Of a DNA stretch of 64,000 bases, positions 42,125 through 50,390 are shown piece after piece; the first letter of the stretch is position 1, and each line of letters starts with the position of its first letter. The stretch lies in the NCBI GenBank assembly GCA_030038095.1, contig JASHPK010000042.1, forward strand, positions 1 through 64,000, written 5' to 3'. The notes below the pieces were generated by a model. It saw only the letters and a list, made by a program, of their open reading frames with translations, was not told where the DNA came from and made no database searches. The stretch comes from Thermoplasmata archaeon (GTDB lineage Archaea > Thermoplasmatota > Thermoplasmata > Lutacidiplasmatales > UBA184). The translations under genes were made by a program, and so were the position numbers.

Positions 42125-42394
42125 TCACTGCGCGACGCCGCGCCGCACCGTGATCGGGATCCGGCTGGCAGCGAACTCACGCTCGGCGATCTCGACCGGG
42201 TCCACGAGCGTCGGGGGCACATCGATGAGGATCGGCGCGCCGAGCGAGATCTGCAGAGCGCGGGCGCCCAGGATCCGCGCCCGCTCGAACCGGGTGTACT
42301 CCTCCGCGCCGAGGGGTCGAGCTGCTGGTCGGGACGTCACGCTGCCGCTCCCCCCGGCCGGCAGGACCGCTGCGGCCGTCAAGGGCCCGGCCAC
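42125..42394 (-). CDS. rpoK: DNA-directed RNA polymerase subunit K (Rpb6 family)
   Basis: [54 protein letters not shown]. Start uncertain (GTG at 42394 or 42340). Confidence 0.92.
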
Positions 42395-42419
42395 TCAGGG
42401 TTCGGTATTTACCCCTTGC

Positions 42420-42443
42420 GGACCCACCGGCTTTGCCCGAAAA
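42420..42443 (+). repeat. Left copy of perfect 24-bp direct repeat
   Basis: GGACCCACCGGCTTTGCCCGAAAA, identical at 45437..45460. Confidence 0.95.
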
Positions 42444-42452
42444 GCCGCCGGT

Positions 42453-42482
42453 GCACAGAAACTCGAGAGAATGCACAGAAAC
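42453..42482 (+). repeat. Two copies of 10-bp GCACAGAAAC repeat (42453 and 42473)
   Basis: GCACAGAAAC-TCGAGAGAAT-GCACAGAAAC; three more copies at 45375, 45395 and 45409. Confidence 0.85.
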
Positions 42483-42609
42483 CCCGTCGAGCCCCGAATC
42501 CGCCATATACGAACCGGCGCTGGGGAGCACGGCTGAGGGGTCAGCCGAGCCCCGATAGTCTGCGGGGCTGAACCGCAGGCTCACTGCCAATGACCCCTGG
42601 GGAGATTCG

Positions 42610-43071
42610 ATGCCCAGGGTAACCGAAGGCAGGACCAAGCAAGCCGAAACTAGACGGCCGCCCATTCAACCCGCCCCGCTCACGCTTGAGCTGTCTCCCG
42701 GGCTTGTTGAAAGTCTGCGACCGTGGATCGATCTGGAACAGGTTGGCTCAGACGGATTTCAGGTCTGGCTTTCCTCCGTTCTCCCGCTGATCCCGCTTCC
42801 TCGCACGGAGAGTAGCCTCCTGTCGGTCAACCCCGCTGCCCGAATCAAGGAGCTGGCGGCCGCGCTGTCTGGATGCGCTTCTGACCGAGCTAGGGTCCAT
42901 TTCCAAGCTGCCGAATACTACCGGGACAACCAACGCTTGGCCCGCCGACTACGTGCACTGGAATCCGTCCTGCGAACCAGTTCGAGTCCTTCGGGCGCAG
43001 TAGCCAATCCAGGACCAGATTCCGAGGCTGACGCCGCAGCAGAACGGTATCTCCCGCCCCGAAAGTGCTAG
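42610..43071 (+). CDS. Hypothetical protein (153 aa) in low-GC island
   Basis: ATG-initiated ORF with no competing long ORF and a lower-GC context; no recognisable family. Confidence 0.5.
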   Translation: MPRVTEGRTKQAETRRPPIQPAPLTLELSPGLVESLRPWIDLEQVGSDGFQVWLSSVLPLIPLPRTESSLLSVNPAARIKELAAALSGCASDRARVHFQAAEYYRDNQRLARRLRALESVLRTSSSPSGAVANPGPDSEADAAAERYLPPRKC

Positions 43072-43273
43072 CCCCTACCCACCTAACCGGTCGGATGTTG
43101 GGATGCGCTCCCATCTAGGACTGAATACCGAAGTCGCCGCTACAGCCCAAGAGCAGTCTTGATAAGCCAGAGACGTTCCTTCGTGTTGCAGGGGATGAAG
43201 CTCCCCTTCGACCGCCCGGCGCGGGCTGATAGCTTCTACCTCGCCCAACCGCGCCAAGGAAGAGGGCGGACCG

Positions 43274-44401
43274 ATGGTCGCGTGGGCACTGCTGACAATA
43301 GTACTGGGCCTAGCCGTTCTGGCGTCGCTTGTCTCCGTTCGTCTCGGCGTTTCCGTAGCGATCCTTGAGATCGTAGCCGGGATACTGGCGGGCAACTTCT
43401 TCGGCGTATCAACGGTCGGGCAGGATTGGCTCCCGTTCGTTGCGGGAGTAGGTAGCGTGGTCCTCACTTTCCTCGCCGGGGCCGAGATTGACCCTGTGGC
43501 GATGCGAAAGACGTGGAAGGCGTCGGTTAGCATCGGTTTGCTGTCGTTCCTGGCTCCCTTTCTCGCCTCTTGGGGATTTGTCTATGTGTTCCTGGGCTGG
43601 GGATGGGAGGCATCGCTTCTCGCCGGGGTCGCTCTCTCCACCACGTCGGTGGCGGTCGTCTACGTTGTGTTGGTCGAGACCGGCGCCAGCCACACCCCCA
43701 CAGGGAAGCTGATTCTGTCGGCGTGCTTCGTGACGGATCTGGGGACCGCCCTCGCACTGAGCCTCTTGTTCGTGCGGCCCAATGAGTACATCTTCCTGCT
43801 GATCGCGGCCATCATTGCGGCAACGTTTGCCCTTCCCCGCCTCTTCGATTGGCTTTTTGCGAGACTCAAGGGAAGGGCCGGTGAGCCGGAGGTCAAGCTG
43901 CTCCTCTTCGGGGTGGTGCTTCTCGGCGCTGCCGCACAGCTCGCCGGGTCTCAGGCCGTCCTGCCCGCATACATTCTCGGTCTTGCGCTTGCGAGCGTGC
44001 TCGGTCGCAATCGAGAGGTCCTGCTGAAGCTGCGAACCCTGACTCTTGCGATCCTGACCCCGTTGTTCTTCATTAACGCGGGCTTGAACGTGTCGGTAGC
44101 GGCGCTGGCGGCGGGGCTCGGACTGATCATAGTGCTGTTCGGAGTCAAGGTCGGGGCGAAATTGATCGGGGTCTTTCCGACGGTCCGTCGTCTCGTAGGC
44201 CATGACTCCACTTACATCGCGTTGCTGATGAGTACCGGACTGACCTTTGGGACCATCTCCGCGACCTATGGTCTCACATCTGGAATCATCGACAAATTCC
44301 AGTTCTCTGTGCTCCTCATGGTTGTTATCGCGACTGCAATCGTTCCGACTATCATCGCGCAAACCTGGTTCCGACCGGCGACGACGGGGGCCAGCGGCTA
44401 A
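43274..44401 (+). CDS. CPA2-family cation:proton antiporter
   Basis: About 12 hydrophobic helices; FLAGAEIDPVAMRKTWKASVSIGLLSFLAPF; GVALSTTSVAVVYVVLVETGASHTPTGKLILSACFVTDLGTALALSLLF; LTPLFFINAGLNVSV. Confidence 0.88.
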   Translation: MVAWALLTIVLGLAVLASLVSVRLGVSVAILEIVAGILAGNFFGVSTVGQDWLPFVAGVGSVVLTFLAGAEIDPVAMRKTWKASVSIGLLSFLAPFLASWGFVYVFLGWGWEASLLAGVALSTTSVAVVYVVLVETGASHTPTGKLILSACFVTDLGTALALSLLFVRPNEYIFLLIAAIIAATFALPRLFDWLFARLKGRAGEPEVKLLLFGVVLLGAAAQLAGSQAVLPAYILGLALASVLGRNREVLLKLRTLTLAILTPLFFINAGLNVSVAALAAGLGLIIVLFGVKVGAKLIGVFPTVRRLVGHDSTYIALLMSTGLTFGTISATYGLTSGIIDKFQFSVLLMVVIATAIVPTIIAQTWFRPATTGASG

Positions 44402-44835
44402 TGTCCGACCACCTGACCGACGGCATCAGATCCATCCTCGTGCCGGTGGATGGCTCCGATAGCAGCCGAAGAGCCGTCGTATTGGCCTCTGAGATGGCCC
44501 GTGCGTTTGGCGCGGATTTGACCCTATTGCATGTAGCCTCGATCAGGGAGCTTCCGGTCCTGATGTCAGAGGCTCAGGATCCTCGCGAAGAGCAGGATAC
44601 AGAGCTCGTTTTGGGAGAAGATGCGAAGTTAGCCCGGGGCTACGGCGTGGAACCCTCGGTGGTCCTTCGGAAAGGCCATGTCGCTAATCAGATTCTGCGG
44701 CACATAGATAGAACCCGGCCCGACTTGGTTGTGATGGGGACGCGCGGCTTGACCGGAACGAGGGGCGTGTTGGTTGGAAGCGTATCCCGCGCCGTCACGC
44801 GTCGAGCTCGAGTACGGGTCGTTCTAGTTCGTTAA
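44401..44835 (+). CDS. Universal stress protein (UspA family)
   Basis: TAATG overlap with antiporter; IRSILVPVDGSDSSRRAVVLASEMARAFGADLTLLHVASI; RPDLVVMGTRGLTGTRGVLVGSVSRAVTRRARVRVVLVR. Confidence 0.92.
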   Translation: MSDHLTDGIRSILVPVDGSDSSRRAVVLASEMARAFGADLTLLHVASIRELPVLMSEAQDPREEQDTELVLGEDAKLARGYGVEPSVVLRKGHVANQILRHIDRTRPDLVVMGTRGLTGTRGVLVGSVSRAVTRRARVRVVLVR

Positions 44836-45209
44836 CTCTGAGAATTCCACGACGGGTTCCGCGTTCCCATTCAGGAGAACATTGGCGGGCCCGCCTGGGC
44901 AGATGAAAGACCGGGCAATGCGGCTGGTAGTCGGTGAGTTGGGACGCTCGTACGTTGAGGCGGAATAAGAGAGCTCGATGGTCGGATTGTGGCTACCGCA
45001 CTATCCAGTGATTAGGAGTGCCAGTTGAAAGTTCCCGCGCCATTGGAGCCCGCTTTGGTTGTCAGGTGTCGTCCAGTTCCACCAGGTTTCGTAGAAGCCG
45101 GGTCCACCTAACGTCGAGACAAAGATGGGACTATGCCCGGGTTCGGTCGCTAGAGGATACTGACCAAGCATTTCATGCCGTCGAGTTCGTGGATCGATAC
45201 GAGTGTCAC

Positions 45210-45347
45210 ATGGACGCGAAAGACCCATTCAAGGATCCGATGGGCCACCTAGTTGAGGACAGCCCTGGTACTTTGGCGCTCGTCGGCGGGCTGGCACTTG
45301 TTGGCGTCATGATCGCCCGCATTTATGCGTTGAGCCGTCAACAATGA
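45210..45347 (+). CDS. Possible small single-TM protein (45 aa)
   Basis: MDAKDPFKDPMGHLVEDSPGTLALVGGLALVGVMIARIYALSRQQ; in-frame ATG inside ORF 45018-45347. Confidence 0.3.
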   Translation: MDAKDPFKDPMGHLVEDSPGTLALVGGLALVGVMIARIYALSRQQ

Positions 45348-45374
45348 TGGTGGCGGCTGACTGATTCCCGCTCC

Positions 45375-45418
45375 GCACAGAAACCCGACCAGCCGCACAG
45401 AAACCCCCGCACAGAAAC
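45375..45418 (+). repeat. Three copies of 10-bp GCACAGAAAC repeat (45375, 45395, 45409)
   Basis: GCACAGAAACCCGACCAGCCGCACAGAAACCCCCGCACAGAAAC. Confidence 0.85.
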
Positions 45419-45421
45419 TAG

Positions 45422-45460
45422 TTCTCGGGCAAAGCCGGACCCACCGGCTTTGCCCGAAAA
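45422..45460. repeat. Near-perfect inverted repeat (17-bp arms, 1 mismatch, 5-nt loop) containing the right copy of the 24-bp repeat (45437..45460)
   Basis: TTCTCGGGCAAAGCCGG-ACCCA-CCGGCTTTGCCCGAAAA. Confidence 0.92.
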
Positions 45461-45577
45461 CTTTCCCGAGCACGGAGAGGCCACGGTCCGTACACTAACT
45501 CGAGAGCCCAGACGCAAGTCCGTACGCTGCAGTCCCGCCGGGCCGGTTCTCATTGATCACGTGGGTTAGGCGGATAA

Positions 45578-47863
45578 TCAATGAGGAGGGGCACGCCCGC
45601 GTCCAACCACAGCCAGCGCCAGCGCTGCGAAGGCGCTGCCTACAACGAGCGTCATGAGTAGGACGAACGAGAGTGCGCCGGAGCTGCTGTTGCTCGGACC
45701 GGGCGACCCTTCGGCGGTCAGAGCATACGTGTTGGGAGCGGACCCCTCGACGGTCACGATGTTGACGCTTGATTTCACGGAATACCCAGGGGGGAGGCTG
45801 AACGAGATCGCGTAGGTGCCATTGGGGAGAGGGATCGTGACCGCGTCGGTGACCGAACTCGCCGTGCGATTGAACTCGGTCGTCGAGTTCGTTGCGGTCA
45901 CGCTCCATCGGGAGCCGCTCGGAAGACCGAGTTCGACAAAGATCACCGGGTACGACTCGGGCTGGAACTCCACCGCGACGGTGACATCGGTTCCGTCCAC
46001 CGTCACGGACCCCGAACTGGTCGCGGTGTAGCCGGTGACAGCGAGCACCACGTAGTCAAACGTTCCGTTGGGCTTCGTGAAGATTAGCTGATTCGAGGAC
46101 GAGGTTTGCAACTCCGAACCGATCGCGACGCCCCAGCCGGTCCCATTGGGGAGGCCGGTTTCCTGAAACGTGAGGAGATAATCCCCGGGTACGGGAATCG
46201 GGCTAAAGGCAACCCTCTGAGTCAAGTTCGCGCCGTTGACGGTAATGCTCCCCTCCGACGGCTCGGCGGTGTACCCGATTGCCATCCCTACGGTGAAGGT
46301 GTAGGAGCCGTTGGTGAGCCAGGCGGTCAGATTGGTTGAGCTCGATGAGAAAGATCCGGCGCCCCCGCTGACTTCCACCGTCCATGGAGTGCCCTGAGCG
46401 AGCCCAGTCTCCGTGAAAGTGCCCGCGTACTCGGACTGATGAGCGAATGTCATGTTCACGGTCACGCCGGTCCCCGAGATCGTGAGAGTTCCGTTCGAGG
46501 GAGACGCGACCCACGAGTACGGGGGCGCGGCAGTATAGAAATACGAGCCATTGACAAGGTCGAACTGGATCGGAGTACCGCCGGCAAGCCCCGTTCCCGA
46601 CCCGACCCCCGTAACGGCTACGCTCCAGGCCGCGCCCTCAGGAAGGCCGGTCTGGTTGAAATCTGCGGGGTAGAGCGATTGAGGCACGCCCCCAAAAAAT
46701 CGTGCGCACTCGAAGGTGGTGTTGGCGGTGTTGGTCACGCAGATGTCGCCCGTCTCGGGATCGTATGCCACGCCGGAGGGGTCGAAATTGAGAACCGTGA
46801 GAAGCGTCTCGTTAGCGGGTTCGATTACTGCCATTGTGGCCCGTCCCCCGCCCACCCAGATCAGCCCGTCCCCGCTATCGTACGCGATTCCCTGTAGGTC
46901 AACGGGTCCGAGGTATCCGGGTTGCGTCACGGAGATGTTCGTGACTCCGGCAAGGGTGGATCCCGAAATCACGGACACGTTGCGTGCGCCCTCGTCCGAC
47001 ACGTAGATGGTGTCCGTGAGATTGTCCACCGCGACGCCATAGGGTCCCGCGGGAGTGGGATCGTTGCGAAGAACTTGATTCGTCGATCCGGAGATGACCG
47101 TGACGTTTGAAGACCCCCAGTTGGCAACGTAGACGTTTCCCGTGCTGGGGTCAGCAGCGACTCCGAGAGGGTTCACCCCCACGGACACCGTGGCTACCAC
47201 CTGCAAGGAGGCTGCGGAGATCACCGAGACGTTGTCCGAACCGTTGTTCGCGACGTAGACCTCGTTGTTCACGGGATCGTACGCCACTCCCTGGGGTTGC
47301 CAGCCGACGGATATCGATGAGATTGGACTGGAGAGACTTCCTGAGAGGACACTCACGTTGTTCGACCCGGAATTCGTTACGAACAGATCGCCGCTGAGAT
47401 TGTCATAGGTTACCCCGAAAGGAGCGCTTCCGACGGGTATCGTTGCCGTGACAACGGGAGCGGAGGTGAAGTTCGCCGGCACGATATCGACGTCGGAGGG
47501 ATCTACGGCTACGTAGAATGACTGGTCTGCCGGATCATAGGCAAGCCATGTCGGCGTGCTTGGGAGGGTTCCCAGGGGTTCCGGACTCAGGCTTACGGAG
47601 GATAGGCGCAGGAAGAGTTGGTTCAGGCGGGCTATAGGCGTGGGGCGGATCGGAGGGGGAGGCCCAGCGCCTGAATCCCGACTCGTCAGAACCGGCCGTT
47701 CTGAATATTTCGGATTCGAGGTGCCGTCGGACTCGGCAGACGTCAGGACCATCATCACCATGAGAGCCGCCAAAACCGGCCAGATCGCGGCGCTCCTCGG
47801 TGGGATCCCCTGCGAACGCTTGGCCCAGCGACGAGGTTTCCAGAAGGCGGCGTCGCTCATCAT
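45578..47863 (-). CDS. Surface protein with YVTN-type beta-propeller repeats, about 4 ETGLP-type modules and C-terminal TM
   Basis: Start MMSDAAFWKPRRWAKRS..IWPVLAALMVMMVL. Repeats VGWQPQGVAYDPVNNEVYVANNGSDNVSVISAASLQVVATVSVGVNPLGVAADPSTGNVYVANWGSSNVTVISG. NQTGLPEGAAWSVAV, TETGLAQGTPWTVEV, QETGLPNGTGWGVAI, VELGLPSGSRWSVTA. C-terminal TM LSFVLLMTLVVGSAFAALALAVVGRG. Confidence 0.88.
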   Translation of the reverse strand: MMSDAAFWKPRRWAKRSQGIPPRSAAIWPVLAALMVMMVLTSAESDGTSNPKYSERPVLTSRDSGAGPPPPIRPTPIARLNQLFLRLSSVSLSPEPLGTLPSTPTWLAYDPADQSFYVAVDPSDVDIVPANFTSAPVVTATIPVGSAPFGVTYDNLSGDLFVTNSGSNNVSVLSGSLSSPISSISVGWQPQGVAYDPVNNEVYVANNGSDNVSVISAASLQVVATVSVGVNPLGVAADPSTGNVYVANWGSSNVTVISGSTNQVLRNDPTPAGPYGVAVDNLTDTIYVSDEGARNVSVISGSTLAGVTNISVTQPGYLGPVDLQGIAYDSGDGLIWVGGGRATMAVIEPANETLLTVLNFDPSGVAYDPETGDICVTNTANTTFECARFFGGVPQSLYPADFNQTGLPEGAAWSVAVTGVGSGTGLAGGTPIQFDLVNGSYFYTAAPPYSWVASPSNGTLTISGTGVTVNMTFAHQSEYAGTFTETGLAQGTPWTVEVSGGAGSFSSSSTNLTAWLTNGSYTFTVGMAIGYTAEPSEGSITVNGANLTQRVAFSPIPVPGDYLLTFQETGLPNGTGWGVAIGSELQTSSSNQLIFTKPNGTFDYVVLAVTGYTATSSGSVTVDGTDVTVAVEFQPESYPVIFVELGLPSGSRWSVTATNSTTEFNRTASSVTDAVTIPLPNGTYAISFSLPPGYSVKSSVNIVTVEGSAPNTYALTAEGSPGPSNSSSGALSFVLLMTLVVGSAFAALALAVVGRGRAPPH

Positions 47864-48048
47864 ACTCCGCTCCGTGCTGATGCTTGTGAGTCCGAGACTT
47901 ATCTGCCTGCGCGGAAGAAACGACCGAGATATGCTGAAGATCGAAGATACGCCAAGAGTATTCCTGTCTGTATTCACCTCACCGGGGTGACTCCCGGAAG
48001 CGCCGACGGGTCCGCCGATCGCGGATGGATCCGGCCCCGCGAGGACGG

Positions 48049-48537
48049 CTAAGGAAACAGATCCTCCCTCAGGTACTCCGGGAGAGGGATGTGGGCCCGG
48101 TCGACCACGACCCGGCTCGCCGGTCGCCAGGAGGATTCGAGTGATCCGCAGGATTTGCCCGCCTCTACCGTGGCGGTGGTGACGCGGATCGCGAGGTGCT
48201 CCGGGGTCTGCTCCACGATACGCCCCCGGGCGAGATGGCCCACGCCGACCCTCGGAAGTCGATCCGCGGTGTAGGTGGCCGGGCCCACCATGACCCACAC
48301 CTTCCCCGTCAGGGTGAGCGCCGTCCAGTACGAGACCTCGCTCATCACCAGGAAGTGAAGGCCGTGGTGGAAGACCGTCGGCCAGCCGATCTCGTCCGGC
48401 TTCGGCGTGAACGAGGTCCGGACCTCGGGGACACCGTCCTCCCCTTCCGCGCGCTCGAACTGAAGGTGGAGGCCGCGGGCATGTTTCGGTCCGCAGCCGA
48501 AGCACGGACTCTCCTCAGGGTTCTCCAGGTACGCCAT
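48049..48537 (-). CDS. Hotdog-fold thioesterase-like protein
   Basis: PCFGCGPKHARGLHLQFERAEGEDG..VRTSFTPKPDEIGWPTVFHHGLHFLVMSEVSYWTALTLTGKVWVMVGPATYTADRLP. Confidence 0.6.
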   Translation of the reverse strand: MAYLENPEESPCFGCGPKHARGLHLQFERAEGEDGVPEVRTSFTPKPDEIGWPTVFHHGLHFLVMSEVSYWTALTLTGKVWVMVGPATYTADRLPRVGVGHLARGRIVEQTPEHLAIRVTTATVEAGKSCGSLESSWRPASRVVVDRAHIPLPEYLREDLFP

Positions 48538-48616
48538 GCCGGTCGAGGGACCCGAGGGCTTTCACCTGTTACCTCCCGCTCTAGGGGCGCGGAGTCGCCG
48601 TCGGGAAGGGCGGGCC

Positions 48617-49207
48617 CTAGCCCACCGCCGAGTAGGCGAACCGGACCGTGGCGTCCCGGAGCTTCTCCAACGCGGTGCGTCGTGCCCGGAGGAGAAAGGA
48701 ATCGAACAGGAGCGTCTCGATCGGGTCCCAGAGCATCACCCAGACGATGGTGATGAACACGAGGTAGAGGAGTGCGGTCAGGTAGGTCACGAACGAGGTC
48801 CGCGTCAGCTCCGGGAGCGTCACGTAGAAGACCCCGGCGACCGCGAGGGCCAGCACGATCAACGGGAGCCCGAACCGCAGGGAACCCAGGCCCTCGACCC
48901 GATTCACCCGGACGTCCAGGTCGGCGCTGACCCGCTCCTCCTCGAAGTACGTCCGCAGCGCCCGCCGGACCTCTTCCTCGGCGGAGGCCGGCAGGGCCGG
49001 CGAGTGCAGCGTCACCTCGAGATCGAGCGCCGGTGCGTGTCGTTGTTCGCGAGCGAGTCCTTCGAGATAGAGCGCCAGCTTTGGGTTCACCAGGCGCCCG
49101 GAGTGGGGGAAAGCCGGGGGCGTCGTGCCATCGAACAAGGCATCGGCGTTCGGGGCCGCGATCGACAGCTGAGGCCTCAACGGCGAAGCCATCGTCAGCC
49201 CGTTCAT
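48617..49207 (-). CDS. Hypothetical membrane protein (2-3 TM)
   Basis: Soluble N-terminus then FGLPLIVLALAVAGVFYVTLPEL...FVTYLTALLYLVFITIVWVMLWDPIETLLFD. Confidence 0.6.
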   Translation of the reverse strand: MNGLTMASPLRPQLSIAAPNADALFDGTTPPAFPHSGRLVNPKLALYLEGLAREQRHAPALDLEVTLHSPALPASAEEEVRRALRTYFEEERVSADLDVRVNRVEGLGSLRFGLPLIVLALAVAGVFYVTLPELTRTSFVTYLTALLYLVFITIVWVMLWDPIETLLFDSFLLRARRTALEKLRDATVRFAYSAVG

Positions 49208-49334: not shown

Positions 49335-50390
49335 GTGGCGTACCGGCGGGGCTCGTTCTTCACCCGCGTGATCCGCCGCCTCTGGATCTTTCTCGCGGGG
49401 TACGTCGTGGTGTTCCTCGTCGCCGCGCTCGGGTTCTTCTGGCTCGAGTCGGGGAAGGTGAACCTGCTCAACTCGTTCTACTGGGCGATGGTCACCCTCT
49501 CGACGATCGGCTACGGCGACATCGTGCCGACGAACGATCCGGCGAAGCTCTTCACCATCGGGATCGCCGCGACCGAGGTCTTCCTCGGAGCCTACCTCGT
49601 CTCGATCGTCATCTCGGTCGTGGCGGAGGAGTCCCAGCACCGGGCCCTCGGGACGCTCGGCACGAACCTCTCGGATCACATCGTCGTCCTCGGGTACTCC
49701 TCCGTCGCGCAGGCCGCGATCCGGGAGCTGCTCGCGCAGGAGGAGAAGGTCGCGGTGGTGGTCGAGGATGCGGCCGAGGTCCAGAACGTACGGACGCGGG
49801 CGCGCGAGGGCCAGCTGTTCGTCACGTACGGCCCGCCGGCGGACCAGGAGATCCTGCGTCGCGTGAACGTCGTCGCCGCGCACTCCGTGATCGTCGCGAC
49901 GGGCGACGACACGACGGCGCTCGTCGCCGCGTTGAACGCCCGAATGCTCAACCCGAGAATCCGGATCGTTGTCTCGGTCTCGCGGCCGGAGCTGCGTCAG
50001 ACCCTGAAGGCGGCCGGCGTCACGTACGTGGCCTCTCCCGGGGACATGGGCGGCCGGCTCTGCGCGGACGCGGCGTTCCGCCCCGAGGTCGCCAACGCCA
50101 TCGAGGACATCACGACGACCGACCTCGGGGCCGACATGGAGGAGTTCCTCCTCACCGACCGGACCCCGATCTCGACCCAGCCGCTGCCCGAAGCCGAACG
50201 GCTCGTCCGATCCGAGTCCGACTGCATCGTGATCGGATACGCGCGACCGGGGGCGAACGGGGAGTTCACCGCCGTGATCAATCCTCCGTCCTCGTTCCGA
50301 TTCCAGCCGGGAGACGCCATCATCGTGCTCGGAACGCTGGCGAACCTGCACAAGCTCCAGCGGTGGCTCGGAGTGCCCCAGGGGCGGTAG
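49335..50390 (+). CDS. Two-TM potassium channel with RCK/TrkA-N and probable TrkA-C domains (MthK-like)
   Basis: Selectivity filter FYWAMVTLSTIGYGDIVPTN between two TM helices; HIVVLGYSSVAQAAIRELLAQEEKVAVVVED; C-terminal FRFQPGDAIIVLGTLANLHKLQRWL. Confidence 0.92.
   Translation: MAYRRGSFFTRVIRRLWIFLAGYVVVFLVAALGFFWLESGKVNLLNSFYWAMVTLSTIGYGDIVPTNDPAKLFTIGIAATEVFLGAYLVSIVISVVAEESQHRALGTLGTNLSDHIVVLGYSSVAQAAIRELLAQEEKVAVVVEDAAEVQNVRTRAREGQLFVTYGPPADQEILRRVNVVAAHSVIVATGDDTTALVAALNARMLNPRIRIVVSVSRPELRQTLKAAGVTYVASPGDMGGRLCADAAFRPEVANAIEDITTTDLGADMEEFLLTDRTPISTQPLPEAERLVRSESDCIVIGYARPGANGEFTAVINPPSSFRFQPGDAIIVLGTLANLHKLQRWLGVPQGR

Follow-up and report, generated by a model that had tools for sequence, protein, structure and literature searches.

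Tn7-like transposons insert downstream of an essential conserved gene and leave it undamaged, carry large cargo rich in defence genes and show target immunity, and Tn7 itself duplicates 5 bp of its target. Tn7-like transposases have been reported to be absent from archaea. Casposons are archaeal elements with terminal inverted repeats (TIRs), a target duplication, a leader-like target and repeated insertion in tandem at one site; they encode Cas1 and PolB, and their targets are the 3' ends of tRNA or EF-2-type genes. Integrons, including archaeal integrons, and clusters of attC sites lacking integrases (CALINs) offer tandem unrelated cassettes without a recombinase gene and growth from one fixed end. 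Mobile insertion cassettes (MICs) hold cargo between insertion sequence (IS)-like ends without a transposase and are presumed to be mobilised in trans. In the present study, we analysed the first 64,000 nucleotides of contig JASHPK010000042.1 of a Thermoplasmata archaeon (assembly GCA_030038095.1; hereafter the window), in which two elements lie in tandem between rpoK, the gene for RNA polymerase subunit K/Rpb6, and a TrkA-type channel gene. A preliminary description made from the sequence had proposed one cassette here. Our results suggested that it is probably a non-autonomous, site-specific transposon-like cassette, and that, within the range tested, its family does not extend beyond one archaeal genus.

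The preliminary description was built on a perfect 24-bp repeat, GGACCCACCGGCTTTGCCCGAAAA, and both copies were found at 42420-42443 and 45437-45460, where shuffled sequences are expected to give none. No further copy was present in the 1.84-Mb genome, so in this genome the motif is not a dispersed one. The 10-bp repeat GCACAGAAAC also occurred as described, twice on the left (42453 and 42473) and three times on the right (45375, 45395 and 45409); these were the only five copies in the genome, and a reversed control pattern gave one. The 24-mer is not the cassette end itself, however. When it was read together with relatives, each copy split into 9 bp in direct orientation, GGACCCACC, and 15 bp, GGCTTTGCCCGAAAA, which recur in inverted form, TTCTCGGGCAAAGCC, at the opposite end; that is, into a 9-bp target duplication and a 15-bp TIR. 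Repeat analysis further revealed that the right end holds an inverted repeat of 19 bp (arms 45420-45438 and 45444-45462, with 5 nt between them), and the same sequence is also inverted between the left and right ends. Nor does the right 24-mer close the cassette, as had been assumed, because it consists of the same 9 bp and the first 15 bp of an older, decayed element in tandem. The reported drop in GC was real (approximately 0.55-0.63 against 0.70), but the low-GC stretch, which begins at approximately 42.44 kb, continues past the right 24-mer and ends at approximately 48.0 kb rather than at 45.46 kb. The TIRs, the second element and a fluoride riboswitch at 43182-43245 had not been noticed before. 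Hairpin ends of the IS200/IS605 type were ruled out by the duplications and the true inverted TIRs.

The locus was then compared across 78 genomes of one genus of Lutacidiplasmatales-type Thermoplasmata, in which the window genome is denoted G000. All of them were metagenome-assembled genomes (MAGs), and the arrays of some (G005 and G038) were split over contigs. The cassette had been placed just upstream of rpoK, and the PF01192 gene indeed lies 26 bp to the left of the cassette repeat. An empty site was found in seven relatives (G059, G022, G033, G030, G041, G054 and G021), whose channel gene lies 93-190 bp from rpoK, compared with 6.9 kb in the window. The proposal of an integrated, apparently non-autonomous mobile cassette, with no integrase or transposase inside, was borne out by these empty sites. 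The alignment of approximately 55 rpoK upstream regions revealed the same element end in relatives, at a constant 9 bp from ...GCAAAGCC to the conserved B recognition element (BRE)/TATA sequence VCAARNNNYWWWTA. A pattern search matched 15 of the 78 genomes and gave zero control matches. Fourteen of the matches lay at rpoK, with its start codon 25-26 bp beyond, and one lay at rpoE (G110). A variant end, ACAAAGCC, was present at rpoK in G005 and G110. Thus, in at least 16 of the 78 genomes, the rpoK BRE/TATA is preceded by an element end at a distance of exactly 9 bp; this is a lower bound because the exact pattern missed or would miss G005, G010 and G114. The cassette had been presented as a single, isolated one; like ends stand at the same position in all these genomes, often in arrays. 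Both A and B ends (the left and right ends of the window cassette) were found beside rpoK in relatives, indicating that the orientation of the cassette is free.

A blind site search was also made, in which GGGCAAAGCC-N9-GGCTTTGCCC was sought with up to 4 mismatches, and with the 9-mer left unused, in 516 kb of DNA. Ten internal sites were found in six genomes (G000, G005, G025 with two, G058, G108 with four, and G110), and shuffled DNA gave one site at the same stringency. At eight of the ten sites, the 9-mer matched that of the genome's own promoter at 9/9 positions; the two most decayed sites matched at 8/9 and 7/9, and the mean match between genomes was 2.9/9. Because the array 9-mers equal the promoter 9-mer of their own genome and genomes differ from one another, these results bear the signature of site-specific insertion with a 9-bp target duplication. 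The same test refuted, in the main, a non-mobile explanation, according to which an ancient rpoK regulatory region with host genes would carry the repeats as regulatory boxes or terminator hairpins. The repeats do flank a promoter, and the hairpin could fold in RNA. However, the elements are missing from most relatives with the conserved rpoK-Trk arrangement, and the explanation runs against the genome-specific 9-bp duplications, the GC shift and the unrelated cargo at the same place, as well as against the ends at rpoE and one other promoter. We considered it very improbable. The locus thus combines TIRs, a short host-sequence duplication at each insertion and an empty site in relatives, the features of a site-specific transposable element.

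The arrays reached approximately 17.7 kb in G108, with four or five sites, and approximately 9.7 kb in G025, and single cassettes measured up to 14 kb. In G108 and in the window, the most decayed sites were those farthest from rpoK, suggesting that newer cassettes enter beside the promoter. Five genomes whose 9-mers differ shared an SRPBCC-like cargo at 64-88% identity; the 9-mer therefore comes from the host and is duplicated on insertion. This speaks for transposition by a staggered cut rather than for conservative recombination in which the cassette brings the overlap. Such recombination, by a host Xer-like tyrosine recombinase or a phage integrase, would resemble that of integrons or of integrative mobile elements exploiting Xer (IMEX): a circular cassette with an attP-like site (three repeats, inverted core, two repeats) would recombine with an attB located at rpoK, and the 9 bp would form the overlap of the crossover. 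Circularised ends would form a lambda-like attP with the inverted core between direct 10-bp arm sites, and an enzyme is at hand, for G000 encodes one tyrosine recombinase, an Xer-like protein on another contig, and this protein is also the sole tyrosine recombinase in the element-positive genomes G108, G102, G038 and G058. However, a carried overlap should travel with its cassette, whereas the 9-mer is genome-specific despite the shared cargo. In addition, no inverted partner core lies to the left of the 9-mer at empty sites, 9 bp exceeds the usual crossover overlap of 6-8 bp, and the Xer-like protein occurs in most genus genomes, whether or not they carry elements. We regarded this route as unlikely. 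For the same reason, the host specificity of the 9-mer, the 24-mers were not taken by preference as attL and attR of an integrase element.

The ends were built in a regular manner. Alignment of six genomes indicated that the A end consists of the terminal repeat and two 10-bp repeats, and alignment of nine sites indicated that the B end consists of the terminal repeat and three 10-bp repeats, both with nearly constant spacing; the inner repeats of the two ends are oriented differently with respect to the terminal repeat. The 10-bp repeat has a further variant in GCCCGAAAA, the inner portion of the terminal repeat. In G005 and G110, the 10-bp repeats (GTCCGAAAAC/GTCCTAAAAC) and the terminal repeat (GGCTTTGTCC) vary together, from which we infer that one protein binds both; the two kinds of repeat are thus putative binding sites of a single mobilising protein. 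The ends of Tn7 contain three left and four right transposase sites (PMC8649781). The cassette ends match these numbers, with three and four putative binding sites when the terminal repeat is counted, but the repeats are 10 bp long and the inner ones differ in orientation between the two ends. Site-specific insertion by an essential conserved gene, which stays undamaged, and the large, defence-rich cargo are shared with Tn7-like elements. In contrast to those elements, the cassettes have a 9-bp duplication at all sites, contain no tns genes, re-use their site in tandem rather than showing target immunity, and lie upstream, at the promoter.

Integration of the Cas1 (casposase-like) type was weighed against the same anatomy. 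In this scheme, the rpoK promoter would play the part of the leader, and the 9 bp would correspond to the repeat that is duplicated by casposons and in CRISPR adaptation. A leader-like determinant beside the duplicated segment, re-use of the site and tandem insertion have been documented for casposons (PMC6614799, PMC10359463), and they match the cassettes. However, the duplication of casposons is 14-15 bp (PMC6614799), compared with 9 bp at the cassettes, and subterminal repeat arrays have not been described for them. Neither cas1 nor polB was seen among the cassette cargo open reading frames (ORFs), of which selected ones were scanned with Pfam, and the target is a promoter rather than the 3' end of a tRNA or EF-2-type gene. 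This explanation seemed to us improbable.

Two further targets were identified. In G110 (L119, G110:C12:42176-42215), an end precedes the rpoE (Rpb7) promoter by 9 bp; rpoE, named by its translation, is a second RNA polymerase subunit gene among the targets. In G114 (L165, G114:C60, around 3123), the target is the promoter of a small membrane-protein gene, and this element of approximately 3.2 kb is flanked by an exact 9-bp duplication, GCGCTGAGG, with the copies 3.2 kb apart. A lone A-like end, TCTTCGGGCAAAGCC, was observed at G000:C52:10098 (L166:4100-4115) by a low-GC 846-aa ORF, with no duplication found; it is perhaps a decayed element at another site. Outside the genus, the motif gave 0 matches in approximately 330 genomes, which belong to 103 further genera of the class. 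The palindromic site yielded, besides G108, just scattered bacterial hairpins in GTDB genomes and no match in viral contigs. As a separate observation, the phage-like IMG/VR contig 3300037506_000184 (L231:721-790) carries GGCTTTGCACAGAAAC followed by two further GCACARAAAC copies, an A-end-like arrangement that may be due to chance.

The enzyme responsible was sought in the genomes. No rve transposase (PF00665) or other rve-domain protein was matched in G000 or G108 (MAGs 92% and 90% complete, respectively), and no recombinase common to the arrays was present among the cassette cargo. An IS5/IS1182-like SWIM-DDE transposase was found in G108, with no visible IS ends, and as fragments in G005, G012 and G045; it is a weak candidate for the mobilising enzyme. 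Several passenger insertion sequences were located in arrays, none of them consistently across arrays. The arrays share with integrons and CALINs the features listed above; unlike those, they have no intI next to them, and neither attC box (RYYYAAC ... GTTRRRY; R''/R') was detected in the two window sites on either strand. The cassettes also differ from integron cassettes in their host-specific 9-bp duplications, their size and their occurrence in both orientations. The MICs are alike in carrying cargo between ends without a transposase; to our knowledge, they are not site-specific and do not stack at one promoter.

Based on these results, the transposon-like cassettes may be formed as follows. 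A mobilising protein supplied in trans would bind the terminal and 10-bp repeats, make a 9-bp staggered cut directly upstream of the BRE of the rpoK promoter and insert the cassette in either orientation, and repair would copy the 9 bp onto both of its sides. Because the rpoK promoter is left intact, the same site is re-used: newer cassettes would enter by the promoter and push older ones away, producing a tandem array in which all sites carry the genome's own 9-mer. As all three targets are promoters, one may guess that promoter factors guide the insertion. Several points weigh against this account. The evidence consists of position and sequence, and movement is deduced from it, since all genomes are MAGs with some arrays split over contigs and no reads. 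The distal end of element 2 has been lost, and the account gives no reason why rpoK is preferred to other promoters. The searches, which did not extend to Cas1 and most DDE families genome-wide, brought up no mobilising enzyme for the cassettes.

The features of the window are listed in Table 1. At 48049-49207, between the low-GC block and the channel gene, there are two host-like high-GC ORFs (162 aa and 196 aa); both are missing from this place in the relatives checked.

Table 1. Features of the rpoK locus and its two tandem elements (positions in the window).
Feature	Positions	Strand	Evidence
rpoK (RNA polymerase subunit K/Rpb6), promoter as target	42125..42394	-	PF01192, 7.7e-10
rpoK BRE/TATA-like promoter GCAAGGGGTAAATA, kept in relatives, intact after insertion	42406..42419	-	Alignment of ~55 relatives' upstream regions
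Left 9-bp direct repeat GGACCCACC, target-site duplication	42420..42428	+	Repeat and blind site test
Element 1, 3,008 bp	42429..45436		Bounded by TIRs and 9-bp duplications
A-end TIR GGCTTTGCCCGAAAA	42429..42443	+	Inverted-repeat analysis, end alignment
A-end subterminal 10-bp repeats, two (42453-42462, 42473-42482)	42453..42482	+	Near-fixed spacing in six genomes
153-aa ORF, maybe not a gene	42610..43071	+	No family match; weak coding signal
Fluoride riboswitch aptamer RF01734	43182..43245	+	38.6 bits vs gathering 34; 28 nt before antiporter gene
CPA2-type cation/proton antiporter, cargo	43274..44401	+	PF00999; TIGR00932 below its cut-off
Universal stress protein, cargo	44401..44835	+	PF00582
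109-aa ORF, no family match	45018..45347	+	Profile searches
B-end subterminal 10-bp repeats, three (45375, 45395, 45409)	45375..45418	+	Fixed spacing over 9 sequences
B-end TIR, TTCTCGGGCAAAGCC on + strand	45422..45436	-	Inverted-repeat analysis, end alignment
Right 9-bp direct repeat GGACCCACC, common to elements 1 and 2	45437..45445	+	Repeat and blind site test
Element 2 A-end TIR, exact; then degenerate 10-bp repeats to ~45510	45446..45460	+	GTACACTAACTCGAGAG for GCACAGAAACTCGAGAG
Element 2, inferred extent	45446..48000		Low GC to ~48.0 kb; no recognisable distal end
NHL/beta-propeller repeat protein, probably secreted, element 2 cargo; start uncertain	45578..47815	-	PF01436
TrkA-type K+ channel gene, distal host neighbour	49335..50390	+	Adjoins rpoK in empty-site relatives

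The antiporter and UspA genes named in the preliminary description were confirmed by profile searches (PF00999, 1.4e-33; PF00582, 3.9e-30). With the riboswitch ahead of them, the cassette carries a fluoride-responsive antiporter-UspA operon, which may confer fluoride resistance. In Enterobacter, uspA likewise belongs to a fluoride-riboswitch operon, and that operon was shown to confer resistance (PMC5533749). Homologous CPA2 loci were found in G010 (78%), G005 (77%, with Usp) and G038 (68%), and the riboswitch RNA also precedes the antiporter in G010 (L060:6770-6833) and G005 (L061:5788-5852). None of the three loci has such repeats, which indicates that the operon is a resident of other loci and was captured here; it also rules out a cassette that is a fixed unit wherever its genes occur. 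In a plasmid collection, the sole match was an antiporter gene, 65% identical. Cargo common to the arrays included SRPBCC-like, NHL, ABC and GIY-YIG-looking proteins, and the NHL protein of element 2 resembles a protein in the G036 array. The GIY-YIG look was noted by eye in a 154-aa protein (MPVKEWG...) of the G025 and G113 arrays (L121 and L117), which is 74% identical between them and has no Pfam match. Defence-type cargo comprised ShosT/ShosA-like genes (G114), a BilD-like protein (G012), and a ThiF/multiubiquitin pair with a PDC-S19 protein (G108). At L116, approximately -13.6 to -11.4 kb from the rpoK site, one cassette encodes ThiF/E1-like, small unknown and multiubiquitin-like proteins, with DUF3644 (PDC-S19), DUF7002 and adenylosuccinate-synthetase-like proteins nearby; this group is a candidate defence gene cluster.

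The family is apparently undescribed so far. We found no paper on integration at rpoK or on Lutacidiplasmatales mobile elements in a literature of incomplete coverage, so the novelty is provisional. G108 matches contig JAKIWI010000003 of isolate AcS5-58, which is among the Lutacidiplasmatales genomes reported from acidic pine-forest soil (PMC9287336); the words mobile, transposase and integrase are absent from the main text of that paper. More tentatively, and with rather more doubt than confidence, the family can be seen as a new archaeal gene-capture system. An integrase, with the basal promoter machinery perhaps as its guide, would insert cassettes at a fixed distance upstream of RNA polymerase subunit promoters, giving integron-like arrays of defence and stress cargo with a CRISPR-adaptation-like target duplication. 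If this is true, archaea of acidic soils would possess a hotspot of gene capture that resembles an integron but lacks its machinery, and it becomes testable which enzyme inserts DNA at exactly 9 bp ahead of a BRE/TATA box. Ty3 is a eukaryotic retroelement that targets promoters, and, if promoter factors guide the insertion, the cassettes would be an archaeal counterpart of such elements. The arrays would also be a place to seek new archaeal defence systems, with the ShosTA-like, BilD/ThiF-like and PDC-S19 candidates among their cargo.

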